64,000 nucleotides of DNA, taken from positions 186,001-250,000 of the forward strand of contig NZ_JAUFQF010000004.1 of the NCBI RefSeq assembly GCF_030409635.1, read 5' to 3'. Below the pieces are notes generated by a model. That model saw nothing but the letters and a program-made list of their open reading frames with translations. It had not been told where the DNA came from and made no database searches. A program made the position numbers and the translations under genes. This DNA is from Vibrio agarivorans (GTDB taxonomy: Bacteria; Pseudomonadota; Gammaproteobacteria; Enterobacterales; Vibrionaceae). This document shows, piece by piece, positions 28,666 through 45,726 of the stretch (positions are counted from its first letter, which is position 1; every line of letters starts with the position of its first letter).

Positions 28666-28703
28666 GAAACAAAAAAACCTGCCGAAGCAGGTTTTTTTGT
28701 TTC
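28666..28703. terminator. Bidirectional terminator, yaiI / abgT-type gene
   Basis: A perfect 17-bp stem (28666-28682 with 28687-28703), loop CGAA, flanked by A7 and T7 so it works for both convergent genes. The core AACCTGC-CGAA-GCAGGTT recurs at 40651-40670. Confidence 0.93.
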
Positions 28704-28715
28704 TATCAATTCGCC

Positions 28716-30305
28716 TTAAGGCGTGTAGTACGTTGCCGCACCAGGACCTACTGGCAAGCCTAGGACAAATACCCAGATGTAGAACAGTAGTGACCAACCC
28801 ACGATGAAGACAAGTGAGTAAGGAAGCATCGTCGCAATCAGCGTACCGATACCTAGATTCTTCATGTAACGAGTTGCTACCGCAAGGATAAGGCCGAAGT
28901 AGCTCATCATTGGCGTAATGATGTTTGTCGTTGAGTCACCGATACGGTAAGCCGCCTGAATAGTTTCAGGTGCGTAGCCAACTAGCATCAGCATCGGAAC
29001 AAAGATAGGTGCTGTTACCGCCCACTGTGCAGAAGCTGAACCAATCATTAGGTTGATAAAGCCACACATTAGGATGAATGCAAAGAACAGTGCAGGGCCA
29101 GTTAGACCGATGTTCTGTAGGAACTCTGCACCGGTTACCGCGATAACTTGGCCAAAATTTGTCCAGCTAAAGAAAGCAACGAACTGAGCAGCGAAGAATA
29201 CCAGAACAATGTACATACCCATTGATGACATTGACTTAGACATCGCGTCAATCACATCACGGTCAGTGTTCATCACGCCAGTTACTTTACCGTAGACAAA
29301 GCCAGGAATCGCAAAGAAAACAAAGATAAATGCTACGATACTTCTTAAGAAAGGCGAGCCAGAGATCTGACCGTCAGCAGTACGTAGTACACCGTCAGCA
29401 GGAACGACAGTCCAAGCAATTAGAGCACTGACAACCAAAACAGCGATACCCGCCATTTTCAGGCCTTTCTTCTCGATGTCTGTCAGCTTACCCATGGTAT
29501 CGCCAGAAAGATCTTCTGCCGCTTCTTCTTCGTTGTATTTGCCGAGCTTAGGCTCAACCAGCTTCTCCGTTACAAATGCACCAGCAAATGAGATGAAGAA
29601 GGTTGAAACGAACATGAAGTACCAGTTCACCTCTGGGCCTACTCGGTAAGTTGGGTCAATCATAACCGCCGCTGTTTCTGTAATACCAGACAACAGTGGA
29701 TCAACCGTACCGATAAGAAGGTTTGCAGAGTAACCACCCGATACACCAGCAAAAGCGGCTGCTAGGCCTGCAAGTGGGTGACGACCCATAGAGTGAAATA
29801 GCATTGCTGCTAGTGGAATAAGAACCACATAACCAAGCTCAGAGGCTGTGTTTGAGATAATACCCGCGAAGACAACCGTTACGGTTACCATGCGCTGAGA
29901 TGCGCCCATCACTAGGCCACGCATTGCCGCAGAAAGAAGACCTGAATGCTCAGCAATCGCAACACCCAGCATTGCAACTAATACAGTACCTAAAGGAGCA
30001 AAACCAACAAAGTTTGAGACCAGATTAGTAACAATACGCTGAAGACCTTCAGCATTAAGCAGACTCACTACATGAATCATACCGTCAGCAGCACGACCCG
30101 GTGCGCCTTCTGGGCGTGGGTCCATAACAGAGACATCAAAATAGCCTGCAATGCCAGAACTCACGAGAATCGCTAAACAGAAGATAGCAAATAGTGTGAT
30201 TGGGTGTGGCAGTAGATTCCCTAAATATTCTACTGCATCAAGAAAACGCGTAAACAGCGATTTCTTCTGTGTGTTTGTATCTTTAATTGAAGCAGATGAA
30301 CTCAC
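28716..30305 (-). CDS. AbgT family transporter (copy 1)
   Basis: An inner-membrane protein of 529 residues with about 10-12 membrane segments, belonging to the AbgT family (p-aminobenzoyl-glutamate importers; some homologues export sulfonamides by proton exchange). Typical motifs: GFAPLGTVLVAMLGVAIAE, ISNTASELGYVVLIPLAA, GSASAQWAVTAPIFVPM and YRIGDSTTNIITPMM. The start is a GTG with AAGGAGG 6 nt upstream; the frame extends 16 codons higher without support. Substrate not known. A paralogue lies at 51633-53192. Confidence 0.9.
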   Translation of the reverse strand: MSSSASIKDTNTQKKSLFTRFLDAVEYLGNLLPHPITLFAIFCLAILVSSGIAGYFDVSVMDPRPEGAPGRAADGMIHVVSLLNAEGLQRIVTNLVSNFVGFAPLGTVLVAMLGVAIAEHSGLLSAAMRGLVMGASQRMVTVTVVFAGIISNTASELGYVVLIPLAAMLFHSMGRHPLAGLAAAFAGVSGGYSANLLIGTVDPLLSGITETAAVMIDPTYRVGPEVNWYFMFVSTFFISFAGAFVTEKLVEPKLGKYNEEEAAEDLSGDTMGKLTDIEKKGLKMAGIAVLVVSALIAWTVVPADGVLRTADGQISGSPFLRSIVAFIFVFFAIPGFVYGKVTGVMNTDRDVIDAMSKSMSSMGMYIVLVFFAAQFVAFFSWTNFGQVIAVTGAEFLQNIGLTGPALFFAFILMCGFINLMIGSASAQWAVTAPIFVPMLMLVGYAPETIQAAYRIGDSTTNIITPMMSYFGLILAVATRYMKNLGIGTLIATMLPYSLVFIVGWSLLFYIWVFVLGLPVGPGAATYYTP

Positions 30306-30635
30306 CTGTTCCCTCCTTATTTTGTTTTGTAGCCTTGTGCGAACGAAACACAAAGCTCGCGCAGGTTACTGCAACATGACAAAAATTTGAAGGGCAAAAA
30401 GTCATCAACGCATCATAAAAACCCATACTTTCTGTATAAATTACATAAAAAACCTAAAAAAGAATAAAAACACAACATTTTAACAACACCATAAAAACCA
30501 ACCCGATTCATCTATAACGCCCCGTTGTCACTTATAATTCTCTCAATAAGTCGGTTTTCGAGAGTTCTAATTTACTGCGACTCGATGTTATTCGATATAA
30601 TAAGCCTATTGCATCCATTTTTGTGAAGTTGATCA
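30306..30635. other. AT-rich divergent intergenic region
   Basis: The gap between the AbgT gene and trmO contains no ORF or RNA that I can support. It is A/T-rich around 30420-30500. A candidate trmO promoter (see next) is its only clear signal. Confidence 0.5.
30571..30601 (+). promoter_or_regulatory. Candidate trmO promoter
   Basis: A perfect -10 TATAAT (30596-30601) with TTTACT 19 bp upstream, about 35 bp before the start codon. Confidence 0.45.
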
Positions 30636-31331
30636 ATGTTTAACATTACACCAATTGGGGTTATTGAGAGCCCCTTCAAAGAAAAGTTTGCCGTTCCTCG
30701 TCAGCCACGCCTTACCAAGAACGCAACTGCACGCATAAAACTCATCGGGACAGCCAACTGCCCGGAAGCGGTACGTGGCTTGGATAATTTCTCTCATGTT
30801 TGGCTGTTATTCCTATTCGACCAAAACCTTGAGGCGGGTTGGAAACCAACCGTTCGCCCTCCTCGCCTAGGTGGCAATGAACGTATCGGCGTATTTGCAT
30901 CGCGTTCTACTTTTCGTCCAAATGGTATTGGCATGTCTGCGGTGGAAATTAACGGCATTCATATTGAGGGAGACCAAGTTTATATCGAACTTGGCAGTGT
31001 CGATTTGGTTGACGGCACCCCGCTCGTGGATATTAAACCCTATATCCCCTACTCCGACTCTATACCCGAGGCGCAAGGGAGTTACGCAGAGGAGCAACCC
31101 AATACCCTACCGGTTACTTTTAGTGAGCAAGCCAACCTATACTTAGACCAACGCTTGGAAGGTGAGAGTGAAAAACAGGTGATCCACCAAGTGTTGGCTC
31201 AAGACCCTCGCCCGGCCTATAAGAAAAACAAGCCTGACACTAAAGAATATGCGGTGAATTTGTACGATATGAACGTAAAATTCCAAGTAAGCGACAAGTT
31301 AGTAACAGTTACTGCAATAGAAGGCTTTTGA
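30636..31331 (+). CDS. trmO: tRNA (N6-threonylcarbamoyladenosine(37)-N6)-methyltransferase TrmO
   Basis: TrmO (TsaA, YaeB) methylates t6A37 to m6t6A in certain tRNAs, using S-adenosylmethionine in a distinctive beta-barrel fold. The family segments are GVIESPFKEKFAVPRQPRL, FSHVWLLFLFDQN, RLGGNERIGVFASRSTFRPNGIGMS, and DLVDGTPLVDIKPYIPYSD. The length, 231 residues, is normal. It lies just upstream of proS; the two genes are also neighbours in E. coli, though oriented differently. Confidence 0.95.
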   Translation: MFNITPIGVIESPFKEKFAVPRQPRLTKNATARIKLIGTANCPEAVRGLDNFSHVWLLFLFDQNLEAGWKPTVRPPRLGGNERIGVFASRSTFRPNGIGMSAVEINGIHIEGDQVYIELGSVDLVDGTPLVDIKPYIPYSDSIPEAQGSYAEEQPNTLPVTFSEQANLYLDQRLEGESEKQVIHQVLAQDPRPAYKKNKPDTKEYAVNLYDMNVKFQVSDKLVTVTAIEGF

Positions 31332-31433
31332 CAAAGCCAATTGGCTGATATTATACACGGCTTGATTTGATTCCCTCTGCCAATAACAACTTGGTTCAGG
31401 GTCCTTTAAATATGATGAAACGGATACCATAGA

Positions 31434-33149
31434 ATGCGTACCAGTAACTATCTTCTTTCTACTCTGAAAGAGACTCCAAACGACGCAGAAGTTATCAGCC
31501 ACCAGCTGATGCTACGTGCAGGTATGATCCGTAAGCTAGCTTCAGGTCTATATACTTGGCTACCTACCGGTCTGCGTGTACTGCGTAAAGTCGAAAACAT
31601 CGTTCGCCAAGAGATCGATAATGCAGGTGCAGTTGAGACTTTAATGCCCGTAGTGCAGCCGTTTGAGCTTTGGGAAGAGACTGGTCGTAGCGAAAAGATG
31701 GGTGCAGAGCTTCTGCGCTTTACCGACCGTCATGAGCGTCCGTTTGTTCTTAGCCCAACGGCTGAAGAAGTGGTCACTAGTCTAGTGCGCAATGAAGTGA
31801 ACTCTTACAAACAGTTGCCGTTAAACCTATACCAAATTCAAACTAAATTCCGTGACGAGCGCCGCCCACGTTTCGGCGTGATGCGTGCACGTGAATTCTC
31901 AATGATGGACGCATACAGCTTCGACTTAGACAAAGAAGGTCTAGAGAAGTCATACGAAGCGATGCATAGCGCATACTGTAAAGCGTTTGACCGCATGGGT
32001 CTTGATTACCGCCCAGTGTTGGCTGACACCGGTGCTATCGGTGGTAATGGCTCACACGAATTCCACGTACTCGCAGAAAGCGGCGAAGACCTTATCGCCT
32101 TCTCTTCTGAGTCTGACTACGCTGCCAACATCGAAAAAGCGGAAGCATTAGCTCCAGCAACAGAATTGGCCGCGCCAACTCAAGAGATGACGCTGGTTGA
32201 TACGCCAAATGCGAAAACCATCGCTGAGCTTGTTGAGCAATTTGATCTCCCTATCGAGAAAACCGTTAAGACACTCTTCGTTAAAGCCTCTGATGAAATT
32301 GACGCAGACATCATCGCGCTGATCATCCGTGGCGATCACGAGCTAAACGAAATCAAAGCAGAAAACCTTGCTGAAGTGGCTTCTCCTCTTGAGATGGCGA
32401 CAGAAGAAGAGATTCGTGCACTCATCGGTGCAGGCCCTGGCTCTCTAGGTCCTGTCGGCCTTGAGCTGCCATTCATCGTTGACCGTTCAGTTGCTGTTAT
32501 GAGTGACTTTGGTGCTGGCGCAAACGTGGATGACAAGCACTACTTCGGTATCAACTGGGGTCGTGATGTTGAGCTTGGCCAAGTAGAAGATCTGCGTAAC
32601 GTTGTCGAAGGTGACCCAAGCCCATGTGGCCAAGGTGTTATCCAGCTTAAGCGTGGTATCGAAGTAGGTCACATCTTCCAACTAGGTACTAACTACTCTG
32701 AGAAAATGAACGCAGGTGTACTTGGTCCTGACGGTAAGAACACTATCCTAGAGATGGGTTGTTACGGTATCGGTGTTTCTCGTGTCGTTGCTTCTGCAAT
32801 TGAGCAGAATCACGACAAATACGGCATCATCTGGCCTGACGCATTAGCTCCTTTCCAAGTCGCTATCGTACCGATGAACATGCACAAGTCAGAAGAAGTG
32901 AAAGAAGCGGCTGAAAAGCTCTACGCTGAACTGACTGCAATGGGTATTGAAGTGCTGTTCGATGATCGTAAAGAGCGCCCTGGCGTCATGTTCTCAGATA
33001 TGGAACTTGTTGGTATCCCACACACTATCGTGATTGGTGATCGCAGCATGAAAGAAGGCAACTTCGAGTACAAGAACCGCCGTACAGGTGATAAAACAGC
33101 CATCGCTATGGCAGATATCGTCGAGCACGTGAAAGCACAGCTGAGCTAA
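31434..33149 (+). CDS. proS: Prolyl-tRNA synthetase
   Basis: A class II synthetase of 571 residues, the bacterial type with an editing domain. The motif 2 region reads [25 protein letters not shown]. The INS editing domain that hydrolyses Ala-tRNA(Pro) spans about 225-400. Motif 3 lies in [19 protein letters not shown]. The C-terminal anticodon-binding domain ends in [12 protein letters not shown] start with a modest SD. No T-box or leader peptide is visible upstream. A terminator follows. Confidence 0.98.
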
Positions 33150-33180
33150 TCACTCACCAGCGCAATTGCTTTAAATCAAA

Positions 33181-33209
33181 GGGTTGAGCACTAGTCTCAG
33201 CCCTTTTTT
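33181..33209 (+). terminator. Rho-independent terminator of proS
   Basis: Stem GGGTTGAG/CTCAGCCC (one G-T pair) with a 7-nt loop and six T. Confidence 0.85.
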
Positions 33210-33283
33210 GTATTTGCGTTTTGCAGTGTGTATATTGTCTGGCAGTTAGAATAGGGTCAAAGACCAAAGAATAAGGAAACCTC

Positions 33284-33490
33284 ATGCAAGTTTACGGTTG
33301 TTGTGAATTAGTTCGCGAGCTATACGCTCAAATTGGCAGTGGCGATCAAGCGTATATCCCACAAGCGATCAGTTGTGCAGTCAAGGCACTCAATGAGATC
33401 GCTGCGGATGAGTCATTACCAAAAGAGGCGCGTGAAAAAGCAGCCTTTGCTGCGGCAAACTTACTGATCTCTGATTTTGAGGATAAGTAA
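33284..33490 (+). CDS. yaeP: YaeP family protein (UPF0253)
   Basis: A 68-residue helical protein of unknown function. It matches YaeP: start [22 protein letters not shown], then [35 protein letters not shown] with AAGGAAA upstream. Overlaps the next gene by one base (TAATG). Confidence 0.93.
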
Positions 33491-33681
33491 TGAACCTTTC
33501 AAACTTTGAAAACATGGATCCAGTCATGTTGATGAGTATCGTTAACATGAAGTTGCGTGATGACTTTTCAGGGGATCTCGACAAACTCGCGGTGTTTTTC
33601 GAGATAGATCGAGCAGCGCTAGAAGCAAAGCTCGCTGCTGCTGGGTTTGATTATCTGCCTGACGCAGGTCAGTTTAGGTAA
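33490..33681 (+). CDS. DUF4250 family small protein
   Basis: A 63-residue cytosolic protein with the DUF4250 pattern: DPVMLMSIVNMKLRDDFSGDLDKLAVFFEID and AKLAAAGFDY. Function unknown. Coupled to yaeP through TAATG. It is separated from the convergent LuxR-type gene by a long hairpin. Confidence 0.85.
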   Translation: MNLSNFENMDPVMLMSIVNMKLRDDFSGDLDKLAVFFEIDRAALEAKLAAAGFDYLPDAGQFR

Positions 33682-33704
33682 ATTAGAACAACTCTAGAAC
33701 TAGA

Positions 33705-33742
33705 ACTCTTGTGCCAATACTTCCCGCTATTGGCACAAGAGT
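33705..33742. terminator. Perfect 15-bp hairpin between convergent genes
   Basis: Arms 33705-33719 and 33728-33742 (ACTCTTGTGCCAATA and its complement), 8-nt loop. No T-run follows on either strand, so it may act with Rho or as a 3'-end stabiliser. Confidence 0.6.
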
Positions 33743-33746
33743 ACTC

Positions 33747-34406
33747 TTAGCCCATCATATCGACTGGTTGCGGTATATGATGAAGTTGAGACACAAAAGA
33801 GACCGCTTCGCTGCGCCGCCGCACTCCCAGCTTTTTATACAGCTTATAGATATGGGTTTTCACCGTACTCTCTGCAACAAATAGATCATCCGCAATCTCT
33901 ATATTCGACTGCCCTTGAACAAGCCGTTCAAGTATCTGCTTTTCGCGCCGAGTTAAGTGGGTAAGACTTGTCTCATACCCGACATTTGCTTGCCTGTATC
34001 GCTCAAGCATTTTACCCATAACGTTGCGCGGCAACCATGTACCACCGCTCATTATCTCTTCAACTGCTCGTGTGAGGTGATCGGCAGGTGCATCACTTAA
34101 CAACATACCCTTTAAGCCATGCCACTGTATGATCTCCTCTTGAGGAAAACGCTGGGGGACGTTATAGATGATTAGATCATGACTGATGATCTCTGTCCAT
34201 AACAGCTCTGATATCGACAGTTTTCTAGCATCCTGAAAGTCCATTAATATCAAACAAACGTTTACAAATTTCGAGTTCTGATTAAGCCTATCGATTGAAC
34301 AAGAAATCACTTCGAACTGCGCTAAATGGTTTAGCTGCTGTTCTACCAACTTAGTTGTTATATTTGCGTTCCCTAGTAGCAGTACCGACATATTATTCTT
34401 ATTCAT
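33747..34406 (-). CDS. CsgD/VpsT-like LuxR-family regulator
   Basis: 219 residues. The N-terminal receiver-like domain (about 7-120) lacks a clear phospho-Asp pocket. A C-terminal LuxR helix-turn-helix follows (about 148-205, LTRREKQILERLVQGQSNIEIADDL and STVKTHIYKLYKKLGV). This is the layout of CsgD and VpsT. VpsT binds c-di-GMP through a W[FLM][TS]R motif; here residues 124-127 are WLPR, so one position deviates. It is divergent from the pilus genes, which makes it their likely local regulator. ATG start with AAAGGACC upstream. Confidence 0.75.
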   Translation of the reverse strand: MNKNNMSVLLLGNANITTKLVEQQLNHLAQFEVISCSIDRLNQNSKFVNVCLILMDFQDARKLSISELLWTEIISHDLIIYNVPQRFPQEEIIQWHGLKGMLLSDAPADHLTRAVEEIMSGGTWLPRNVMGKMLERYRQANVGYETSLTHLTRREKQILERLVQGQSNIEIADDLFVAESTVKTHIYKLYKKLGVRRRSEAVSFVSQLHHIPQPVDMMG

Positions 34407-34617
34407 GCCTGTTGGTCCTTTACTCTAAGTACAATCCTATCCTAGCCACTTTAATGTGACATTCAATCCAAAATGTTAATTTTTGCGCCACTATACATCA
34501 GTGCAAAAAATACTTTTATCGACACAAATCATTGATGTAAATACAAAACCAGAATTAACCTCATAAAAAGTATGAGAAAAAAATACTACTTTTTTCAGTG
34601 ATACAACCTCTATCGTA

Positions 34618-34646
34618 CTGACCGATTTTCTATCTCAGATTATATT
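34618..34646 (+). promoter_or_regulatory. Candidate pilus operon promoter
   Basis: CTGACC (34618-34623) and TATATT (34641-34646) are separated by 17 bp, giving a start near 34653. Confidence 0.45.
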
Positions 34647-34673
34647 TTTTCACCAACAGGACGGGTTATTTTT

Positions 34674-34695
34674 CGAGTAAGAGGCTCTCTACTCG
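34674..34695 (+). promoter_or_regulatory. Leader hairpin before the first pilus gene
   Basis: CGAGTA/TACTCG (34674-34679 with 34690-34695), extended inside by GAG/CTC with one bulged A, lies just before the SD GGAG (34699). It could affect ribosome access. Confidence 0.4.
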
Positions 34696-34710
34696 ATCGG
34701 AGAAACTGAA

Positions 34711-35211
34711 ATGGACATTCGATATACCAAAGTACCACGCAGGCTATGTGCAGCGTTTTTGTGCGCCAGTGCCCTCTCAGTTCAAGTGTGTGCCTCTGAT
34801 GATCTTTCTATGACCGTTTCGGGGCATATCGAGTCTATGTGCTATCTAACGCTAGAGCAGGAAGCTGCTGTCACATTGCGCAATAACACTCTCTCTCGTG
34901 TTGACTTAGATCTCTATTGTAATCAACCCATGTCACTAGGCATTCAATCTCGCAACGGGGGCATAAAGCATGATAGCTCCAATTTACTCAGTCCCTACTC
35001 TGTCAAGGTCAGCGTCCCTAAAGCCCTGATCAACAGCGAGATAAAAAGCCCTGATTTGCAACAGATACACTATTTCGACTCAGGCCAAACAATCCCTTAT
35101 TCAGCGATTGGTCAACTGACCTTCGAGCTGCAAGAACCTCTCATTGTTGCCGGTATTTACCGAGATACGGTAACCGTCAGTTTGGCACCAAGGTTAATTC
35201 TGAGTCCTTAA
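34711..35211 (+). CDS. Chaperone-usher pilus subunit (minor pilin candidate)
   Basis: A 166-residue secreted protein. A signal peptide (about 1-29, ending VCASDD) leads into a single beta-sandwich domain with two cysteines (CYLTL and YCNQP), the disulfide pattern of usher-pathway pilins. Near the C-terminus VAGIYRDTVTVSL has the aGxYxDTxTv signature of spore-coat-U-type subunits, shared with the two other structural proteins of this cluster. Being first and less Thr/Ser-rich than the next gene, it may be a minor or base subunit. SD GGAG is present. Confidence 0.65.
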   Translation: MDIRYTKVPRRLCAAFLCASALSVQVCASDDLSMTVSGHIESMCYLTLEQEAAVTLRNNTLSRVDLDLYCNQPMSLGIQSRNGGIKHDSSNLLSPYSVKVSVPKALINSEIKSPDLQQIHYFDSGQTIPYSAIGQLTFELQEPLIVAGIYRDTVTVSLAPRLILSP

Positions 35212-35214
35212 AGG

Positions 35215-35232
35215 TTTTGCCATAAGGCAAAA
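35215..35232 (+). promoter_or_regulatory. Hairpin between first and second pilin genes
   Basis: TTTTGCC-ATAA-GGCAAAA, a 7-bp stem followed by a few A, not T. It may be an mRNA processing or 5'-stabilising element for the major pilin message. Confidence 0.4.
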
Positions 35233-35291
35233 AACTCTATGCCATGAGCATGGAACCCAAAACTAACTATCGTAAAGACGGAGTTTTACTC

Positions 35292-35804
35292 ATGAAAAAA
35301 TTAGCACTAACAGCAGCAGTCAGCGTACTAATGGCAGGTCAGGTTTATGCGGATCCAGACTTCTCTGGTGAACCAATTGACTTTGAATTGGAAGCAGAAG
35401 TAGAGAGTACATGTTACGTATCATTTTTCAGCAGCACATTACTCAATGACACAATGAACTTCGGTACACCTTCTGTCGATGACTCTCTAGACGGCGATAT
35501 TACGTTTAAGTGTAATGACCCTGATGGTGCCACCCTCACAATGACCTCTGCTCAGGGCGGCCTAACAAACATTGACTTGCTATCTGAAAAAGTCAAATAC
35601 GAGGCAAAACTGACTGTCGGAACAGCTTCAAGCACCCTTGTAACCACTGAAGGCGAAAATGAGTCTGCTACTTTAGAAGTGCCTGCATCAGCAACACTGG
35701 CCGGCGCTGGCCAGTCAGGTAATGTCTTGGTGACGCTAAAAGAGAGTGCAACCTATGCGGGTGAGTACTTAGATACTCTAACTATTCAGATCGCGGCCAA
35801 CTAA
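35292..35804 (+). CDS. Chaperone-usher pilus major subunit candidate
   Basis: 170 residues. The ATG at 35292 starts a canonical signal peptide (MKKLALTAAVSVLMAGQVYA) with ACGGAG upstream; the frame extends 16 codons higher without signal-peptide character. The mature domain has two cysteines 40-45 residues apart (STCYVSF and FKCND) and ends with YAGEYLDTLTIQIAAN, the spore-coat-U type terminal strand. It is acidic and rich in Thr, Ser and Ala, as major pilins often are. Hairpins flank the gene on both sides. Confidence 0.7.
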   Translation: MKKLALTAAVSVLMAGQVYADPDFSGEPIDFELEAEVESTCYVSFFSSTLLNDTMNFGTPSVDDSLDGDITFKCNDPDGATLTMTSAQGGLTNIDLLSEKVKYEAKLTVGTASSTLVTTEGENESATLEVPASATLAGAGQSGNVLVTLKESATYAGEYLDTLTIQIAAN

Positions 35805-35820
35805 GCCATCGTTATAGATA

Positions 35821-35848
35821 AAGGTATGAGGTTCAGGCCTCATACCTT
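35821..35848 (+). promoter_or_regulatory. Hairpin between major pilin and chaperone genes
   Basis: A perfect 11-bp stem (AAGGTATGAGG and its complement) with a 6-nt loop and no T-run. This position, right after the major pilin, is where fimbrial operons often have an mRNA stabiliser or partial terminator that makes subunit message exceed assembly message. Confidence 0.6.
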
Positions 35849-35868
35849 CAATAAATCGGAAGTTGGTT

Positions 35869-36576
35869 ATGACAAGACTGTTACTCATACTCTCTCTTTT
35901 CACATGTTCAACGCTCTCTTTTGCTTACAGCGTACAACCCATGGTAAGCGAAATATCACCAAGTGGGTCAAATTCTCAATTAATGATGAAGGTTGAGAAC
36001 ACCAGCACAGAACCGTTAGAGTTACAAATCGACCCCTACCACCTGCAATTTAATGAAAACCAGACAGAAGAGTTAGTCGAAGCTTACGATGATATTCTCG
36101 TCATTCCCCCCACAGTCACTGTGCAGCCAGGACAGTTTCAATCCATCTTAGTGCGCTACATTGGCGATCCATCAATCCTTACATCAAAAAGCTATCGTGT
36201 CGTGTTCGACCAAGCAGAGGTACAAAACAACTCAAATAAAGGGGAATCAAGCATTAAGATGAAGTATCAATTTTTAACACTTCTCAATGTAAAGCCCGCA
36301 AACTCAAGCCCAGACATTAAACATGAACGCACCTACACAGAAAACGGGAAATGGTTTTTGGAACTAACAAATAATGGTACCAGCTACGCTCGCCTATCAA
36401 GAATGGAATGGAAGGTTGGTTCGCCAGGCAGTTTACTCGCCATTACAGCGAATGATATTCGATCACACATCAGCGGCAACTTACTGCTTCCTCAGCAAAC
36501 ACGCTCATTTGAGTTCATCCCTTTTGACGGTATTGAACCTCAAGCCATGGCCGTTCAGATCAAGGAAAGCAAGTAA
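35869..36576 (+). CDS. Periplasmic pilus chaperone 1
   Basis: 235 residues. A signal peptide (about 1-20, LLLILSLFTCSTLSFA) is followed by two immunoglobulin-like domains. Domain 1 contains VIPPTVTVQPGQFQSILVRYIG, the edge strand and PGxxQ pattern of PapD/Csu-type chaperones, which donate a strand to pilin subunits. The ATG at 35869 has GGAAG upstream; a TTG two codons earlier is possible. It overlaps the next chaperone gene by TAATG. Confidence 0.8.
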   Translation: MTRLLLILSLFTCSTLSFAYSVQPMVSEISPSGSNSQLMMKVENTSTEPLELQIDPYHLQFNENQTEELVEAYDDILVIPPTVTVQPGQFQSILVRYIGDPSILTSKSYRVVFDQAEVQNNSNKGESSIKMKYQFLTLLNVKPANSSPDIKHERTYTENGKWFLELTNNGTSYARLSRMEWKVGSPGSLLAITANDIRSHISGNLLLPQQTRSFEFIPFDGIEPQAMAVQIKESK

Positions 36577-37271
36577 TGACTCGTGGCTTTCTATGGTTAA
36601 TGCTGATCATTCCTATAACATGCAAGGCATTAGTTATAGAGCCTTTGGTATTAGAGATGAACCGCCAGCAGCAGGGACAAATCATCATCTCTAATCCAAC
36701 TGCCCAACCATTAGCCGTCGATACACAAGTATTAGAAATCGACTTTGCTCAGGCGGTGGCACTGCTTGAGGCAGATGATGCTCTTTTGGTTTATCCACCA
36801 GCAGTTTTACTTCAACCAGGTGCGAAACAGAGTATCCGCTTGATATGGCAAGTCGCTGGGACGATGGATCGTTCACGTAGTTTCTATATCCGTTTCACCA
36901 CACCAAAGATCAATGTTGTCACCGAGCCCAGCACGAGTCGCGTTGACGTGCAAATAGACTATAACGCATTGATTCATATTGCGGACAAGCAGCACCGACC
37001 CATCATTGCAATAGCCGATCAATATGTCGAGTCGCAATCTTTAGTCGTTAAGGTAGAGAACCAAGGGAGTGGTTACGACTCACTGGTCAATTACACGCTG
37101 ACTGATACCAGTAGCAAGCCTGTCATTGCTCAATTAGCCGATTCAGTGGGAAATGTGTTCTTCCCGCCCATGAGCACGAGCCATCTGCGGATACCGCTGG
37201 TAGAACTTGATTCGAGCTTTAACTTCTCTGCTCCTTTAACCTTGAAACGCACCTCCCCCATCAAAGATTAA
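36576..37271 (+). CDS. Periplasmic pilus chaperone 2
   Basis: 231 residues with an N-terminal signal peptide (about 1-18). The chaperone pattern is again clear: LLVYPPAVLLQPGAKQSIRLIWQVAG in domain 1, with RSRSFYIRFTTPKI after it. It differs strongly in sequence from chaperone 1, so the two are not a recent duplication. One may serve the tip subunit and the other the shaft subunits. Coupled to chaperone 1 by TAATG. Confidence 0.78.
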   Translation: MTRGFLWLMLIIPITCKALVIEPLVLEMNRQQQGQIIISNPTAQPLAVDTQVLEIDFAQAVALLEADDALLVYPPAVLLQPGAKQSIRLIWQVAGTMDRSRSFYIRFTTPKINVVTEPSTSRVDVQIDYNALIHIADKQHRPIIAIADQYVESQSLVVKVENQGSGYDSLVNYTLTDTSSKPVIAQLADSVGNVFFPPMSTSHLRIPLVELDSSFNFSAPLTLKRTSPIKD

Positions 37272-37286
37272 TGCAAGGATGAGTCT

Positions 37287-39725
37287 ATGTGGCGCAGAAA
37301 TGGCTTCTACTTGCTTGTATTATTTTGGGGCTGCTCAGTTTTCGCCTCCATCAACCCTTTTGGGCGCGCCATCACCATTACCAGTGTGCTGCGCACTGAA
37401 CAACGAATCCTTGGGCAAGTTGAAGTCGAAATCGGTGCAGACGGGAGTCTAACCTTACCAACGGATAGTACTTCTATCTTGCTAGCAAAAGTGCTGCCGG
37501 ACAGTGTGATTGATTCTTTCCAGATCCAATCTATCGATAACCAATTGACCGGACAAACGCTTGAACAGCTAGGCTTCCCAATCCAACTAGACCCAGCAAC
37601 ATTCGAACTGCTCATCGCCATTCCTCTGCAAGCAAATAGGATTTACCCCCTCTCAATGGCAACCTCAGAGGGAAAAAGAGAATATACCGAAGCTAGCCCT
37701 TTCAGCGGCTATGCTAACTTGTTCCTCAGCGGCTCTCGAAACGATGTGATCAGCGAAGGCTCTAGTGGCGATGACACTTACTCACAAAGCCATCGTCTTC
37801 AATCTGGTCTTAACTACCATGCTGCCAACCTCACTTATGAGGCTGAATATCTCGATTCAGACACCAGTGAAGCGCAATACAACCGCGCGTCGACAAAACT
37901 GACTTATGACTTTCCAAGCCAAGGCACCCGCCTAACCCTTGGTGATACCAACCCTGAAACCGCCTCTTTTCAAGATGGTGCTGATATGCTCGGGATATCA
38001 ATAAGCCGAGACTTTAACGAGATTCCCACCCGCAACGTTCGCCCAACCGCGACACAACAGTTTACCTTGGCGCGCACTTCTGATGTCGATGTGGTGATTG
38101 ATGGGGTTGTGGTGCAAAGGCTAACACTGCCGGCTGGGCGCTATAACCTCAGTGACATCCCCCTTGCTCAAGGCAGTAATGACATCAACCTTGTCATTAA
38201 AGATCAAGCCGGTAATGAAGAAACCATCTCTTTCTCAATCGCTGTCGATAGCGACCTGATCAAACAGGGAGAATTTGAATATGTGATGAGCGTCGGTGCT
38301 CCTGCCAGTTACTCCAATGGCAAACGTGACTATGATGGCGAGCAGTTGCTCGTTAACGGACTGGTAGAAATTGGCGTAACCCCATCTTGGACGCTCGGGC
38401 TCAACGGGCAATACTATGACAGCAATTATCAAATAGGCACCAAGCTTCTTAATGCATGGCGTTTTGGTACAACAGAAGTCGTTGCGAGCCACAGCCAACA
38501 CGGTATTTCTGGCAGTGGTGAAGCCTTACGGCTGGGCTATTCCTCACCCAGCGAACTTTATGAGGAGTTTGGTATCCGGTTAGATGTTCGTTATGAGTAC
38601 TACTCGCCAACCTTTACCCAAGTCATGATAGATGAAGTCGATACGTCCAGTCTCAACCAACACTATGGGCAAGTATCCCTCTCTATGCCGCTTTTCCATT
38701 ACTATCGTGCAGGGTTAAATGTTAACTACCGCGAGCGATATGAACAAGATGAAGGCTATTGGTCTATCGGCTCAAGCTTCTCGGGCCCAATAGTCAATAC
38801 TCGCGCCACCTTTGGCCTTAATCTCAACTACACTGCTAGCCCATCTAGTAAAGACGAGTTTGATGTCTCTGCAACACTGAGCTATCCACTTGGTCGAAAA
38901 CACCGCTTCGTGGGACGCTATCAAACTAATAACAACCTCTATCAGCTCGACTACAGTTATCGCAACAACACAGGCAGTGTTGGTGGTACTTCTGTTAATG
39001 CAACTGTCAGTCATGATGATAGTGACGATTTGGAGTTTGATGGTGGAATAGATTACACCGCGAACCGCTTCAATATCAGCTTTGACCACGACTCACGCTT
39101 TAGCGAACTCGATAGCGACCTAAATCGTGTCGACACCACTAGGCTAGAGTTAGGCACGGCGATAGCATTCTCTGGTAGCAATGTCGCCATTGGCCGCCCA
39201 GTTGGTGAGAGCTATGCCGTTGTCAGCACTCATAACAACTTGAGCTCTAACAAAGTTCTACTTTCACCGAGCAGTCAAGGTAGCGCGCGCGCAGAGATCA
39301 ACCATGGAACTAACGTTCTACTGCCAGATTTGATCGCCTATGCGCCGCAACTTATTACCTACGATGTTGAAGACCTACCTCCCGGTTACGACTTAGGCGC
39401 AGGCCTATTCTCTGTTAACCCTACACTGGGGCAAGCCTATCACCTTCAGATTGGCTCAGATGCGGTTCTGACATTGATAGGAACTCTTGCAGACAAACAA
39501 ACGCTTGTCCCCATACCCTTGGTCGCTGGTAAAGCTTACAAACCAGATACCCCTGAACAGAGCATTGAGTTTTTTACTAATCGAAAAGGTCGCTTTGCAG
39601 TGATGGGAATGTCGGCGGGAGAGTGGGTGATCGAGCTTCAAACCAACCCCATCAAGCGCACTGTTATCAACATGGTTGAGAACGAAACCATGCTAGACCA
39701 AAAAGGGACTCTTTATGTTGAATAA
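37287..39725 (+). CDS. Outer-membrane pilus usher
   Basis: 812 residues, secreted by an N-terminal signal peptide (about 1-21). The N-terminal periplasmic domain (about 22-120) resembles the alternate, non-FimD type usher start (ITITSVLRTEQRILGQVEVEIGADGSL). A long beta-barrel region follows with the usual Tyr/Asn-rich strands (for example LTYEAEYLDSDTS and FGLNLNYTASP). A plug-like segment lies near 270-320 (TSDVDVVIDGVVVQRLTLPAG). The C-terminal domains follow from about 640 (VLLPDLIAYAPQ, DLPPGYDLG). Overlaps the tip gene by 11 bp. Confidence 0.83.
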   Translation: MWRRNGFYLLVLFWGCSVFASINPFGRAITITSVLRTEQRILGQVEVEIGADGSLTLPTDSTSILLAKVLPDSVIDSFQIQSIDNQLTGQTLEQLGFPIQLDPATFELLIAIPLQANRIYPLSMATSEGKREYTEASPFSGYANLFLSGSRNDVISEGSSGDDTYSQSHRLQSGLNYHAANLTYEAEYLDSDTSEAQYNRASTKLTYDFPSQGTRLTLGDTNPETASFQDGADMLGISISRDFNEIPTRNVRPTATQQFTLARTSDVDVVIDGVVVQRLTLPAGRYNLSDIPLAQGSNDINLVIKDQAGNEETISFSIAVDSDLIKQGEFEYVMSVGAPASYSNGKRDYDGEQLLVNGLVEIGVTPSWTLGLNGQYYDSNYQIGTKLLNAWRFGTTEVVASHSQHGISGSGEALRLGYSSPSELYEEFGIRLDVRYEYYSPTFTQVMIDEVDTSSLNQHYGQVSLSMPLFHYYRAGLNVNYRERYEQDEGYWSIGSSFSGPIVNTRATFGLNLNYTASPSSKDEFDVSATLSYPLGRKHRFVGRYQTNNNLYQLDYSYRNNTGSVGGTSVNATVSHDDSDDLEFDGGIDYTANRFNISFDHDSRFSELDSDLNRVDTTRLELGTAIAFSGSNVAIGRPVGESYAVVSTHNNLSSNKVLLSPSSQGSARAEINHGTNVLLPDLIAYAPQLITYDVEDLPPGYDLGAGLFSVNPTLGQAYHLQIGSDAVLTLIGTLADKQTLVPIPLVAGKAYKPDTPEQSIEFFTNRKGRFAVMGMSAGEWVIELQTNPIKRTVINMVENETMLDQKGTLYVE

Positions 39726-40617
39726 CGTTATATTGAATACACTGACGGCTAAACATCTCAGCTTTTGGCGCTACTCTGTGCTTATAAGCACTTTACTTGC
39801 CACGTTCAATGCTTTGGCTTGTGATGGCCAAATCACCCCAATAGCACAGAACAACACCAACAATCACTATGATGTGTTTAACACAGGAACTTACGCGCTA
39901 CAGCAGCACTTTACGCTGGAAACGTCAACCTCATGTGAAACACAACTGGTCATATCAACACTCGATCAGTCAAACACCGTCACTGGCTTCGGTCAACAGC
40001 TTCAGTTCGGTTTTTACTCGGCGAGTGGGGATTCAAAAAACCATCAAATTGCCTTTGCACCATTGCAAGGCGATACCTCCCACAGCTTTTCACTTCGCTA
40101 TCTATCAGGCCAATATGCCGCAGCAGGCACGCTTTCAAATACCTTAAAAGCCCAACTCATCAATAAAGCAACACAACAAGTTATCAGTGAGCAAGAGTTT
40201 GAGCTCACCACCCAAGTGACCGCCAGCGCAGCGGTCTATTTCTCTGGCTTGAATGAGCACCATACCTTCGTTGACTTAGGGGCGCTTTCGAGTAACAAAG
40301 TCATTTCACACCTACCGACTCTGCGTGTCATCAGTACTAGCCCCTATATTGTCAGTTTTTCTTCTGATGGATTAGGCAAGCTCACACACGCTACGGGTAA
40401 CCCTCAATGGTTCATTGACTATCAATTGATGGCAAATAAAGACACTTTAGAGCTATCGAATGGCAAACAAAAGTGGCAAGCAGCGCAAATGACCAACCAG
40501 CTAGGCGAGTTAATTTCGCTTTCCATGCGGATAGGAAATACTGAGGAAAAACCAGCAGGAGACTATCAAGATACGATTCATATTTCGGTTCTTCCAGAAC
40601 TCACCATCGCACCATGA
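39715..40617 (+). CDS. Two-domain pilus tip subunit/adhesin candidate
   Basis: 300 residues with a long signal region (about 1-35, ending NALA|CDG). Two beta domains are apparent: residues 36-165 with two cysteines (ACDGQ and TSCETQ), and 166-300 ending in PAGDYQDTIHISVLPEL, again the spore-coat-U type donor-strand end. This architecture is that of CsuE-like tip proteins, where the N-terminal domain binds the surface. Its start overlaps the usher stop by 11 bp, so translation is coupled. No receptor can be predicted. Confidence 0.65.
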   Translation: MLNNVILNTLTAKHLSFWRYSVLISTLLATFNALACDGQITPIAQNNTNNHYDVFNTGTYALQQHFTLETSTSCETQLVISTLDQSNTVTGFGQQLQFGFYSASGDSKNHQIAFAPLQGDTSHSFSLRYLSGQYAAAGTLSNTLKAQLINKATQQVISEQEFELTTQVTASAAVYFSGLNEHHTFVDLGALSSNKVISHLPTLRVISTSPYIVSFSSDGLGKLTHATGNPQWFIDYQLMANKDTLELSNGKQKWQAAQMTNQLGELISLSMRIGNTEEKPAGDYQDTIHISVLPELTIAP

Positions 40618-40648
40618 CACATGCCTGCAACCATGTCTATAAGTACAA

Positions 40649-40674
40649 AAAAACCTGCCGAAGCAGGTTTTTCT
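40649..40674. terminator. Terminator of the pilus operon
   Basis: Stem AAAAACCTGC/GCAGGTTTTT with loop CGAA, near copy of the hairpin at 28666. It also serves the convergent DUF3622 gene (A-run on the left). Confidence 0.88.
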
Positions 40675-40699
40675 ATTCATTCATAATTGAGCTTATCGA

Positions 40700-40942
40700 T
40701 TAAGATTCACTCTCTGCACGTGCTTTACGCTGAGCAGATTTGCGCTGGTTACGCTCTGTTTGGTTCTTGATGAAACCAGCGAGCTCTTTCTCGCCCCAAG
40801 CTTGAGCTTCCGCTTCTGTTTTAAAGCCCATTTCGCGCTTTGAAACAGTTGTTTTACGTGAAGTCACTTGACGAGTGATCTCTGCGCACCAGCCTTCACG
40901 TTTTTCAACAACGCGAACGGCAAATTTTTTACTAGTCGACAT
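40700..40942 (-). CDS. DUF3622 family small basic protein
   Basis: 80 residues, cytosolic. The sequence FAVRVVEKREGWCAEITRQVTSRKTTVSKREMGF matches DUF3622, a Vibrio/Shewanella family of unknown function. The C-terminus is highly basic (NQTERNQRKSAQRKARAESES). Start chosen at the second ATG because AGGA is 8 nt upstream; the first ATG, two codons earlier, is too close to it. Confidence 0.8.
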   Translation of the reverse strand: MSTSKKFAVRVVEKREGWCAEITRQVTSRKTTVSKREMGFKTEAEAQAWGEKELAGFIKNQTERNQRKSAQRKARAESES

Positions 40943-41135
40943 TTTCATATTCCTAAAGGATTGGGCATCGCTTACTTCGGTTAGAGTTATCCATATCTAA
41001 AAAGCGAACTTTTTGGGTAATCAGCTTAATATTAAGAGCCTATACCAACATTGGTAACACACCATCCCTTGGTAAGGGCGCTATTAGAGCATAGATACCT
41101 GCCTTCTGGTAATCATTTATCGCGTTTGAGCGCAA

Positions 41136-41675
41136 TTAAGCTCGCGTGTTGTTGTACGCTTCAAGCTCTTGAATCGTTGTTTGAGCAATCACTTCACCGT
41201 CTAGGTAGAAAGTCACATTGTCTTCTTGCTTCACTCCAATTAACGTTGCCTGCTCACCCGTATTGTAAGTGATGTCCATTTGCAGTGTGTTTTCATCAAT
41301 TTGCTGCATCTGGCCCTTTTCAATCGCACGCACTTCACTGATTGGCGGCACTGGTGCTTCGGTCAGTGATGGATCAAGCTGATGATTGATCTCAATGTAT
41401 GTCCCTGTCTTTGTATCAAAGATGTGTGGATTACCATTGATTGGGTTTTTACCTGTCCAGAACTCTAGTGAGTTAAACACAATGTAGTCTGCTGCAACCG
41501 TAATACCGTAAACAGGCGCCAACAACATGTTTAGGCCACCACGCGCATAACGGTTATCAACGGCTTTTACGTTGAACTCCATCAACTTGCCTGTCACTGC
41601 ATTGCTACCAACACAACCTGAAAGGGCTAATACGACGCCCGCAACCGCGCTCAGTTTGATGATTTTATTATTCAT
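41136..41675 (-). CDS. DUF3332 family lipoprotein
   Basis: 179 residues. The signal peptide ends with the lipobox LSGC, so it should be a lipoprotein. After it comes SNAVTGKLMEFNVKAVDNRYARGGLNMLLAPVYG, typical of DUF3332, a family of unknown function also common in Vibrio. Asp is not at the +2 position (Val is), so outer-membrane sorting is likely. It stands alone with its own short 5' region. Confidence 0.82.
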   Translation of the reverse strand: MNNKIIKLSAVAGVVLALSGCVGSNAVTGKLMEFNVKAVDNRYARGGLNMLLAPVYGITVAADYIVFNSLEFWTGKNPINGNPHIFDTKTGTYIEINHQLDPSLTEAPVPPISEVRAIEKGQMQQIDENTLQMDITYNTGEQATLIGVKQEDNVTFYLDGEVIAQTTIQELEAYNNTRA

Positions 41676-41775
41676 TTTTTTGTATTACTCACTGCTATGT
41701 AGAAATTGGCGCGCATAGTACTTAAGCCACTAAAAATCTCTGTTAGGAAATTGTCAGATTTGCGTGCTCCAGATA

Positions 41776-41804
41776 ACAAAAACGCCAGTCAAGTGACTGG
41801 CGTT
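41776..41804 (-). terminator. Terminator of purL
   Basis: Stem AACGCCAGTCA/TGACTGGCGTT (41781-41791 with 41794-41804), then five T on the minus strand. Confidence 0.85.
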
Positions 41805-41832
41805 CTATTTGGGTTGTAAGAATTATCGGAAA

Positions 41833-44800
41833 TTAGCCGATGTTCTTACGTGCGTTCTGGAACATACGCATCCAAGCGCCGTTCTCACCCCATGAATCTG
41901 GAGCCCAAGAGTTTGCTACCGTACGGAAAACACGCTCTGGGTGAGGCATCATGATAGTCACGCGACCATCTTGAGTCGTAAGGCCTGTGATTGCGTTTGG
42001 TGAACCGTTCGGGTTGTTCGGGTATTGCTGTGTTGGGTTGCCGTTGTTGTCAACGTAACGCACAGCTACCGTACCTGACGCTTCAATCGCTGCTAGGTGG
42101 TCAGCATCACGAACTTCTACGCGACCTTCACCGTGAGACACAGCGATAGGCATACGAGATCCCGCCATACCATCGAAGAATACTGAATCAGACTTCTGAA
42201 CTTCAACCAAGCTAAAGCGAGCTTCAAAGCGCTCAGATTCGTTACGAACGAAACGAGGCCATAGGTCTGCACCTGGAATCAGCTCTTTCAAGTTCGATAG
42301 CATCTGACAGCCGTTACATACACCTAGCGAGAAAGTGTTGTCTCGGTTGAAGAAACCTTGGAACTGGTCACGAGCGGCCGAGTTGAACAGGATAGACTTA
42401 GCCCAACCTTCACCAGCACCTAGAACGTCACCGTATGAGAAGCCACCACAAGCAACAAGGCCTTGGTATTCATCTAGAACCGCTTGACCCGTTAGGATAT
42501 CGCTCATGTGAATGTCAGTAGCTTCAAAGCCTGCACGGTCAAATGCCGCTGCCATTTCAACGTGAGAGTTCACACCTTGCTCGCGTAGAATCGCCATCTT
42601 AGGTTTAGCACCTTTTGCGATGTATGGCGCTGCAACATCTTCGTTGATGTCAAAGCTTAGGTTTACGTTCAGACCTGGGTCAGAGTTGTCTTTCTTCGCT
42701 TCAAATTCTTGGTCAGCACAAGCTGGGTTGTCACGTAGGCCTTGCATCTTATGCGTTGTTTCAGCCCAGATAGTACGAAGCTCTGTACGCGAGCGCTCAA
42801 CGATAACCGCATCACCAGACGTGATAACAAAGTTGTCTGTTGCTTCCACTGAACCAATCACGTGTGAACACGCTTCTAGGCCATTTGCGGCTAGCACTGC
42901 TTTTACCGCATCTAGGTCATCGTTCTTAACCTGAACAACCGCACCTAGCTCTTCGTTAAATAACGTTGCTAGAACATCATCATCTAAGTTCGCGATATCT
43001 GCTTTCACACCACAGTGACCAGCAAATGCCATCTCAGCTAGCGTTACGAATAGACCGCCATCACCTTTATCGTGGTAAGCCACCAGCTTGTCATCACGAA
43101 CCAGTGTTTGCATTGCATCAAAGAAGCCTTTTAGCTGCTCTGCGTTATCAACGTCAGCCGGTTTATCACCAAGCTGCTTGTAAACCTGTGCCAATGCTGT
43201 TGCGCCTAGACGGTTCTTACCGTTACCTAGGTCAACAAGAACCAGTGAGCTATCACCTTTATCAGTGCGAAGCTGAGGAGTTACCGTCTTACGAACATCT
43301 TCTACACGACCAAATGCAGTGATAACCAATGAAAGTGGTGATGTCACCTCTTTGCTTTCACCGTTATCTTCCCACTTAGTCTTCATCGACATTGAGTCTT
43401 TACCTACTGGGATAGTAAGGCCAAGCGCTGGACATAGCTCTTCACCGACCGCTTTCACCGCTTCGTAAAGACCTGCGTCTTCACCTGGGTGACCCGCTGG
43501 AGACATCCAGTTAGCAGACAGTTTGATATGCTTGATGTCGCCGATATCTGTCGCTGCAATGTTCGTTAGAGACTCACCTACCGCTAGACGTGCTGAAGCA
43601 CCAAAGTCTAGAAGTGCGACTGGCGTACGCTCTCCCATAGACATCGCTTCGCCGTGGTAAGAGTCGTAGCTCGCTGCGGTTACTGCGCAGTTTGCAACCG
43701 GCACCTGCCAAGGACCAACCATTTGGTCACGTGCAACAAGACCCGTTACCGTGCGGTCACCGATAGTGATTAGGAATGTTTTCTCTGCCACTGTTGGTAG
43801 ACGTAGAACACGGTCAACCGCTTCGTTGATTTCGATACCATCACGAGTAATCGCTGGGCTATCAACCTTTAGCGTTTTCGCATCACGGTGCATCTTCGGC
43901 GTTTTACCAAGCAAGATATCCATTGGCATATCGATTGGTGTGTTGTCGAAGTGAGAATCTTCTAACGTTAGGTGACGCTCTTCAGTTGCAACACCCACAA
44001 CCGCATAAGGCGCACGTTCACGCTTACAGATTGCATCGAATACTTCCATATTCTCTGGCGCAACTGCCATTACGTAACGCTCTTGAGATTCGTTACACCA
44101 GATCTCAAGTGGGCTCATGCTGAGTTCGTCGTTTGGTACATCACGTAGCTGGAATAAACCGCCACGCTCACCATCGTCACAAAGCTCTGGAAGTGCATTC
44201 GAGATACCGCCCGCGCCCACATCGTGGATAAACGCAATTGGGTTGCTCTCACCAAGCTGCCAACAACGGTCGATCACTTCTTGACAACGACGCTCCATTT
44301 CTGGGTTTTCACGCTGTACAGAAGCAAAATCAAGGTCTTCAGCAGATTGACCAGAAGCCATTGATGAAGCAGCGCCGCCACCAAGACCGATGTTCATTGC
44401 AGGACCACCTAGCACGATTAGCTTCGCGCCTACAGGGATCTCTTTCTTCTGAACGTGCTCATCACGGATATTACCCATACCACCAGCAATCATGATTGGC
44501 TTGTGGTAACCACGGATCTCTTCACCCGCGTGAGACGTCACTTTTTCTTCGTAAGTACGGAAGTAGCCTAGTAGGTTAGGACGACCAAATTCGTTGTTGA
44601 ACGCCGCGCCACCTAGTGGACCTTCTAGCATGATATCTAGAGCATTTACAATGCGACCTGGCTTACCAAAGTCCGTTTCCCATGGCTGTTCAAAACCAGG
44701 AATACGAAGATTAGAAGTGGTAAAACCAACCAGACCTGCTTTTGGCTTACCGCCGATACCTGTTGCGCCTTCGTCACGAATCTCACCACCAGAACCTGTC

Positions 44801-45726
44801 GAAGCACCTGGCCACGGAGAGATTGCTGTTGGGTGGTTGTGCGTCTCAACCTTCATCAGGATGTGCGCATCTTCATTGTGATAGTTGTATTGACGAGTTT
44901 CAGGATCTGGGAAGAAACGACCCACTTTAGAACCTGTCATTACCGCTGCGTTATCTTTATATGCAGACAGAACGTGGTCTGGTGTCGTTTCAAATGTGTT
45001 CTTGATCATCTTGAACAGAGACTTCTCTTGATCAACGCCGTCGATCGTCCAGTCTGCGTTAAAGATTTTGTGACGACAGTGCTCTGAGTTTGCTTGAGCA
45101 AACATCATGAGTTCGATGTCGTTCGGGTTGCGACCCAGCTTAGTGAAGTTTTCTACCAGGTAGTCAATTTCATCTTCCGCAAGAGCAAGACCTAGAGAGA
45201 CGTTTGCCTCTTCTAGTGCTGCGCGACCGCCAGCAAGAATATCAACGTGAGCAACAGGTGCAGGCTCAGCCACAGTGAATAGCGCGGCAGCTTGTTCCAT
45301 TTCAGTGAAAACCGCTTCCATCATGCGGTCATGGATCAGTGCTTTAACAGCCTGAACTTGCTCTTCAGAAAGGTCTGCAGATGACTCAAGGTAGTAAGCA
45401 GTACCGCGCTCTAGACGGTTCACTTTGCCTAGACCACAGTTGTTTGCGATATCTGTTGATTTTGATGACCAAGGAGAGATCGTACCTGGACGAGGAGTCA
45501 CTAGAAGTAGAAGACCTTCTGGCGCATGCTCTTCGATTGTCGGACCGTAAGTCAGCAGTTTCTCTAGCTTCTCAATTTCTTGAGTATCTAGGTCTGATGT
45601 TAGGTCTGCAAAGTGCATAAACTCGGCGTAAATACCTGTTACAGGTAGGCCTTGTTCACGACAAAGTTCCAATAGTTTGTTTACACGAAACTCTGAAAGA
45701 GCTGGGGAACCACGCAAAATTCTCAT
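41833..45726 (-). CDS. purL: Phosphoribosylformylglycinamidine synthase
   Basis: The large single-chain PurL (1297 residues), which makes FGAM from FGAR, ATP and glutamine in purine synthesis. Layout: N-terminal PurS-like domain, two AIRS-related ATPase halves (motifs such as [19 protein letters not shown] and [15 protein letters not shown]), and a C-terminal class I glutaminase with the nucleophile Cys in [11 protein letters not shown] and catalytic HPE in [10 protein letters not shown]. The start [11 protein letters not shown] is the family standard; seven more upstream codons are open but unlikely to be used. A PurR site is upstream. Confidence 0.97.

Follow-up and report, generated by a model that had tools for sequence, protein, structure and literature searches.

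The usual layout of archaic (Csu-type) chaperone-usher pili, which is not a strict criterion, is one chaperone per operon, and the gene set of the Acinetobacter Csu pilus includes a single chaperone, CsuC. The order of assembly, with the tip first and the shaft after it, is usually explained by the usher affinities of one chaperone's complexes. The E. coli common pilus (ECP) of strain K-12 has two chaperone genes (ecpB and ecpE), one usher, and an adjoining gene for a DNA-binding regulator. For the CupB pilus of Pseudomonas aeruginosa, the available portion of the source paper reports two chaperones, suggested to be non-redundant, for one usher, and its authors call the role of the second chaperone, CupB4, speculative (PMC3031594). 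In the accessible part of the work on CsuC, the C terminus of the subunit is held by Arg89, Tyr196, and Arg174, Arg89 is singled out as the feature most typical of the archaic and alternative chaperones, and the anchor function is described for CsuC and EcpB (PMC4654587). The nearest described operon in the literature searched, from Vibrio vulnificus, is called archaic sigma-clade and has one named chaperone in the available excerpt; it was compared by its description (PMC13348674). Here we analyze a 64,000-nucleotide stretch of Vibrio agarivorans DNA (assembly GCF_030409635.1, contig NZ_JAUFQF010000004.1, positions 186,001 to 250,000; hereafter the window), located on a 3.0-Mb contig of a 4.9-Mb genome. 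Judged by sequence, it contains a complete chaperone-usher pilus operon that is Csu-like (archaic-type) and encodes two chaperones (CH1 and CH2), two small pilins (S1 and S2), an usher (USH), and a tip subunit (TIP). We lean toward the view that this is a Csu-like pilus in which CH1 and CH2 divide the labor of carrying the subunits.

An earlier note on this DNA had described a pilus cluster of seven open reading frames (ORFs), all of which were found at their positions, with the six pilus genes co-oriented in the order S1-S2-CH1-CH2-usher-tip on the plus strand (34711-40617) and the regulator gene divergent on the minus strand. The operon is closely packed; one base is common to CH1 and CH2, and the usher and tip genes overlap by 11 bases. 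Hidden Markov model searches of the kind proposed in the note placed two pilus proteins above the family cut-offs, the usher (PF00577, 85.4 bits, cut-off 27.1), as is characteristic of chaperone-usher pili, and CH2 (PapD_N, 29.1 bits, cut-off 23). CH1 fell below the latter value (20.2 bits), and PapD_N was matched by 8 of 20 CH1 members at an E value of 0.01. The C-terminal motifs VAGIYRDT, YAGEYLDT, and PAGDYQDT quoted in the note are all present, and donor-strand alternation was found at the N termini of S1 and S2. The predicted structures of S1 and TIP resemble pilin domains, in keeping with the Ig-like donor-strand folds on which the proposal of a pilus depended, and the best Foldseek match of the TIP model is CsuE, as for a two-domain CsuE-like tip, which supports the claimed affiliation with the Csu/spore-coat-U lineage. 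S2 is the probable main shaft subunit, and S1 is possibly an adaptor.

The operon resembles Csu in its CsuE-like tip, in two CsuC-like traits of its chaperones (a donor-strand register in which P0 is a large residue and, in CH1, the anchor arginines), and in small pilins with donor-strand N termini. The differences are the presence of two chaperones and two small pilins, a CH2 that lacks Arg89, longer TIP and S1 tails, and a regulator of the VpsT/CsgD type. Because there are two chaperones instead of the usual one, we label the operon archaic-type or Csu-like rather than a Csu pilus. Several results weigh against this affiliation. For the SCPU family (PF05229, cut-off 22.4), S2 and TIP scored only 16.0 and 20.1 bits, respectively; S1 had no Pfam match, and 0 of 41 S1 members matched SCPU at an E value of 0.01; the CH2 profile fits CsuC and CfaA about equally (E values of 1.9e-6 and 3.4e-6, with 4ncd at 5.1e-7); and the rows of the usher tree hold no named CsuD or CupE usher. 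At the same E value of 0.01, SCPU was matched by 14 of 40 TIP members (best 3.3e-6) and 3 of 17 S2 members, and the match of CH1 to the CsuC profile reached merely 0.023. Sequence searches against solved structures returned no match for S2 and a single weak CS6 chain for TIP, and a TIP search of a large protein set returned one cluster, named Vibrio astriarenae and 94% identical.

The two-chaperone arrangement is conserved. The usher query matched 99 of 296 sampled genomes of the family; 48 of these, its own included, exceeded 420 bits, and the next best reached 184 bits. Neighborhoods were compared for 29 of the 47 other strong-usher genomes, with gene counts based on simple longest-ORF calls, and S1, a second small gene, CH1, CH2, usher, and tip occurred in the same order in 29/29, so that two chaperones rather than one are the layout of these loci and the two dissimilar chaperones remarked on in the note are kept throughout. 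As both chaperones precede the usher in every case, the arrangement is not due to chance. The remark that two chaperones per usher are not the textbook layout holds insofar as the arrangement is unusual and is tempered by two precedents, CupB (PMC3031594, available portion) and ECP. The suggestion that the pilus may be undescribed stands, as no pilus of such composition was described in the literature searched, mostly outside subscription journals.

In a scan of named genomes the single usher sequence returned no relatives, but an alignment of ushers did; among the best 80 of its 115 relatives, the same layout is present in Vibrio harveyi, V. splendidus, V. rotiferianus, V. aestuarianus, V. 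atypicus, V. sinaloensis, and V. hepatarius and, outside Vibrio, in Enterovibrio, Photobacterium, Salinimonas, Alteromonas, Shewanella, and Marinomonas. Some Marinomonas (L092, L094, and L097) have a divergent version, with ushers ∼30% identical to that of the window and the regulator convergent downstream, and others have a Vibrio-like version. The second small gene can hardly, or not at all, be recognized as S2 in five of six loci of the Photobacterium type. A 142-kb plasmid of V. alginolyticus (L146), typed as non-mobilizable, carries the entire operon plus the regulator, and its record annotates two 'fimbria/pilus periplasmic chaperone' genes. The pilus seems rare outside these groups because a class-wide sample of 369 genomes gave no usher match above 201 bits other than that in its own genome. 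The usher of one genome (G534) is 26% identical to that of the window, and CH1 and CH2 were not recognizable beside it in the ORF calls. A search with the CH1 profile returned 10 proteins, one of them named V. agarivorans at 97% identity. On this sequence evidence, the pilus belongs to a conserved and widespread clade of pili in marine Gammaproteobacteria that has no name and is characterized by two chaperones together with two small pilins.

In an usher tree of 95 rows, built by a quick method, the 48 two-chaperone ushers and one row whose operon is interrupted by a contig end formed one branch with a Shimodaira-Hasegawa-like approximate likelihood ratio (SH-aLRT) support of 99. Forty one-chaperone ushers from Vibrionaceae, Alphaproteobacteria, and Cyanobacteria adjoin that branch with a support of just 80. 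Outside, on long branches that cannot be ordered reliably, are EcpC, FimD, and the one-chaperone rows L060, L061, L062, and L147; an Acinetobacter plasmid usher is also outside the clade on a long branch. The note had called the usher alternate-type; an affiliation of this kind (ECP/CFA) is not supported, since the E. coli EcpC falls outside the two-chaperone clade, albeit on a long branch, and a placement within ECP was not obtained. The one-chaperone archaic-type pili of Vibrionaceae resemble the window's pilus in having related ushers, chaperone, and tip, with a LuxR-type regulator in front, and differ in having one chaperone, one small subunit, and ushers ∼25% identical to that of the window. 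The genome itself has two other ushers (L044 and L045), each preceded by one chaperone gene and one small gene (archaic-type); the small pilin of L044 has a C-terminal extension rich in Cys, Gly, and His. In a tree of thinned chaperone sets (32 CH1, 32 CH2, 26 single, and 3 E. coli chaperones), CH1 formed one clade (100/98), CH2 formed another (97/99), and EcpB and EcpE paired together (100/99), apart from both.

The division of labor is suggested by partial correlations of maximum-likelihood tree distances over 31 loci, computed in linear, rank, and log modes with quadratic controls for the other proteins and 2000 permutations. From 46 distinct two-chaperone loci, 30 were used together with the window, and 16 (near copies, cut contigs, and Photobacterium loci without a recognizable S2) were excluded. 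In each of the three modes, the chaperone-subunit pairs with the highest values were S2-CH1 (0.60-0.73) and CH2-TIP (0.42-0.58), values reached in 0 of 2000 permutations for either pair, and S2-CH2 was negative (−0.14 to −0.28). In a 24-locus core the two pairs gave 0.77 and 0.49, respectively. CH2 tracked the TIP pilin domain (0.59) above the TIP N domain (0.24).

The CsuC-aligned columns 89 and 174 and the C-terminal tails were also compared. Basic residues occupy both columns in 39 of 46 CH1 and 0 of 47 CH2, and neither column is basic in 38 of the 47 CH2. The window's CH1 has Arg in both; its CH2 has Tyr in the Arg89 column, Arg two residues further, and Tyr at donor position P0. An Arg two residues past column 89 is found in 37/47 CH2 and 0/46 CH1. 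The P0 Tyr is present in 42 of 47 CH2 and is followed by Asn in 32/32 of the thinned set, with the donor positions hydrophobic. The tail after GxYxD is exactly 9 residues in all 40 S2 with the motif (of 45 S2 in total), 12 to 17 residues in 43/43 S1, and 10 to 16 residues in 47/47 TIP (one at 10 and 46 at 11 or more). In one-chaperone tips it is 9 or 10 residues in all 37 with the motif (38 in total); L074, which was counted as one-chaperone and has a contig end within the operon, was excluded from the tail counts. A five-locus Photobacterium branch (L043, L052, L053, L054, and L055) has a CH1 that retains neither arginine and an S2 without the motif, and two Shewanella CH1 have Ser and Lys in place of the arginines. 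A general rule, by which loss of Arg89 goes with proline or a longer tail, failed on the one-chaperone loci, and a link between anchor and tail is therefore claimed for the two-chaperone clade alone.

From these data a mechanism can be proposed. CH1 would bind the shaft pilin S2 in the manner of CsuC, with a donor strand and with arginines gripping the C-terminal carboxylate, and CH2, which either lacks the anchor arginine or has it displaced by two residues, would carry TIP and perhaps S1, both of which have longer tails. The usher would receive the CH2-TIP complex first, the S1 adaptor second, and CH1-S2 for the shaft last, and having two clamps would prevent competition by the abundant shaft pilin for the tip-loading chaperone. 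That shaft and tip travel on two chaperones whose C-terminal anchors are matched to the tails (9 residues for the shaft and ∼14 for tip and adaptor) is offered tentatively, as a proposal with a little under an even chance of being right. If true, subunit order would be partly encoded by chaperone choice ahead of the usher. The proposal makes a clear prediction, namely CH1 with S2 and CH2 with the tip, with anchor position matched to tail length, and the clade provides dozens of natural replicates for the role of the second chaperone in two-chaperone systems.

A number of observations weigh against this division. The split is not clean because CH1 also correlates with TIP, both with its N domain in one analysis (0.44, 0/2000) and in rank mode (0.25, 23/2000). 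The preference of CH2 for the TIP pilin domain is gone in the 24-locus core (0.24 versus 0.31), S1 correlates with both chaperones in a mode-dependent manner, the adjacent USH-TIP pair is also high (0.43-0.49), and S2 and CH1 are neighboring genes. The shifted Arg of CH2 might represent that same anchor placed in a different register. Among the one-chaperone loci, 26 of 37 lack Arg or Lys at position 89 and their tips still have 9-residue tails, the single Vibrionaceae chaperones listed have Arg89 without a basic residue at 174 (8/8), and the pilins are too variable to compare (motif in 9 of 29, 6 of those with 9 residues). Photobacterium is not uniform, as P. damselae (L042) retains S2 and the CH1 arginines.

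The correlations might also be an artefact of blockwise recombination or of common fast and slow rates, since S1-S2-CH1 and CH2-USH-TIP each form an uninterrupted block, evolution is fast in both CH2 and TIP and slow in both CH1 and S2, and USH-TIP is high. We regard this as unlikely. CH2-USH (0.08-0.12) and S1-S2 (near zero) are low despite adjacency, CH2 and TIP are correlated though not neighbors, S1 and TIP are both fast and show a correlation near zero, and the results, all with quadratic controls, agreed across the linear, rank, and log modes; linkage alone is thus an unlikely cause of the signal, least safely so for the adjacent S2 and CH1. A redundant pair derived from an old duplication, with both chaperones serving all subunits and the sequence differences being drift, would agree with the homology of CH1 and CH2 (99.9% in an hhalign profile comparison), with their common origin apart from the single chaperones not being rejected (approximately unbiased test, p-AU 0.206), and with the correlations that cross the split, such as that of CH1 with the TIP N domain. 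It is improbable in view of the retention of both chaperones in 29/29 strong-usher loci, their opposite partner correlations, and anchor positions that are different yet conserved.

CH2 might instead be an accessory factor, as CupB4 may be, that primes the usher or acts via a third protein. Its missing arginine at the usual place and its fast evolution (mean patristic distance 2.29 versus 1.35 for CH1) fit such a role, as does CupB4, which in the available portion of the report bound neither C-terminal peptide tested (PMC3031594). We nevertheless doubt it, because the hydrophobic donor positions and the P0 Tyr are kept in CH2 and its correlation with TIP far exceeds that with the usher. Very improbable is membership in a named two-chaperone pilus, although ECP shares two chaperones, one usher, and an adjoining DNA-binding regulator gene, and CupB shares two chaperones (PMC3031594, available portion). 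In ECP, whose genes are ordered A-B-C-D-E, the second chaperone comes last; EcpC branches outside the clade; and EcpB and EcpE are a separate pair. The latter two findings suggest that the possession of two chaperones evolved independently of ECP. CupB differs by a CupB2 of the PapD/FimC type, a POTRA-bearing P-usher, and the TpsA-like CupB5, as far as the available portion describes it (PMC3031594). A Pfam scan of the window usher detected no POTRA family, and the operon ORFs, by ORF list and Pfam, include no TpsA-like gene that would correspond to CupB5.

The regulator matched GerE at 73.7 bits and a VpsT-like receiver (VpsT-like_REC) at 26.5 bits, just below the cut-off of 27, in support of the VpsT/CsgD type assigned to it in the note. 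At the cyclic di-GMP (c-di-GMP) motif it has WLPR, a proline variant, instead of the VpsT-type W[FLM][TS]R. The regulator adjoins 38 of the 46 distinct two-chaperone loci, located downstream and co-oriented in 18, upstream and divergent in 10, upstream and co-oriented in 5, and downstream and opposed in 5; of the eight loci that lack the regulator, six cluster with Enterovibrio and the other two are located close to contig ends. The motif in the 38 regulators is WLPR in 32, WFPR in 3, WFTR in 2, and WFSR in 1. According to the accessible part of one paper, QstR, which has the same WLPR variant, works at low c-di-GMP, the same c-di-GMP independence was reported for BrpT, and VpsT has WLTR and requires c-di-GMP (PMC6237807). 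The window's regulator shares with VpsT, BrpT, and QstR a LuxR helix-turn-helix after a VpsT-like receiver and with BrpT and QstR the WLPR motif (PMC6237807, accessible part). Because the WLPR variant is c-di-GMP-independent in QstR and BrpT, direct c-di-GMP control is not expected, and the regulator probably controls the adjoining operon without need for c-di-GMP. The VpsT/CsgD likeness thus stands as an assignment of type and does not hold as a sign of c-di-GMP control. The clade also defines a widespread, unnamed surface fiber of marine Vibrionaceae, whose regulator is predicted to be c-di-GMP-independent.

The features are collected in Table 1. The starts of S2 (35292) and CH1 (35869) are revised ones, judged more likely from the signal peptides. 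A scan of positions 33100-41900 lent no promoter support, yielding 9 promoter-like sites versus 13.3 in shuffles.

Table 1. Features of the two-chaperone pilus locus (window coordinates; a dot indicates no strand)
Feature	Positions	Strand	Basis
Stretch absent from G270, 44 other bases instead	33681..40646	.	blastn flanks 28006-33680 and 40647-45980
REG, VpsT/CsgD-type LuxR regulator	33747..34406	-	Pfam, alignment; WLPR replaces W[FLM][TS]R
Intergenic region between regulator and operon, divergent, 304 bases, presumed regulatory	34407..34710	.	coordinates
S1, small pilin, donor-strand-like N terminus, 14-residue tail after GxYxD	34711..35211	+	
S2, small pilin, 9-residue tail after GxYxD	35292..35804	+	weak SCPU, alignment, tail
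CH1, PapD-like periplasmic chaperone, both CsuC-type anchor arginines	35869..36576	+	sub-cut-off PapD_N, CsuC columns
CH2, second periplasmic chaperone	36576..37271	+	PapD_N, profile matches, anchor/donor columns
USH, outer-membrane usher	37287..39725	+	PF00577, usher tree
TIP, two-domain tip subunit, pilin-like C-terminal domain, 14-residue tail after GxYxD	39715..40617	+	
Terminator-like hairpin 3′ of tip gene	40649..40672	.	similar hairpin at the empty site of G270

Among the 41 genomes of the genus that were searched, the nearest by ProS (98%) is G270, which retains the flanking genes; the stretch examined there gave no match to any operon profile. Two short ORFs after proS (window 33149-33690), just upstream of the insertion point, are also present in G270. 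The hairpin at the 3′ end belongs to the flank, because a similar one occurs at the empty site of G270. A terminator-like 42-base direct repeat (28660-28701 and 40636-40677, 88% identical, 12 kb apart) is present, and its second copy spans the right-hand boundary of the segment missing from G270. No integrase gene was found among the ORFs of 33681-40646, and the locus does not stand out as foreign in its composition. A gain of the operon fits these loci, as the flanking ORFs differ among many of those compared and a plasmid bears one of the copies. A single slot in the chromosome holds either kind of pilus (L035, L036, L037, and L140): four shared downstream genes, 70-96% identical, border two-chaperone loci in three Vibrio genomes and, in V. 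inusitatus, an archaic-type operon with one chaperone.

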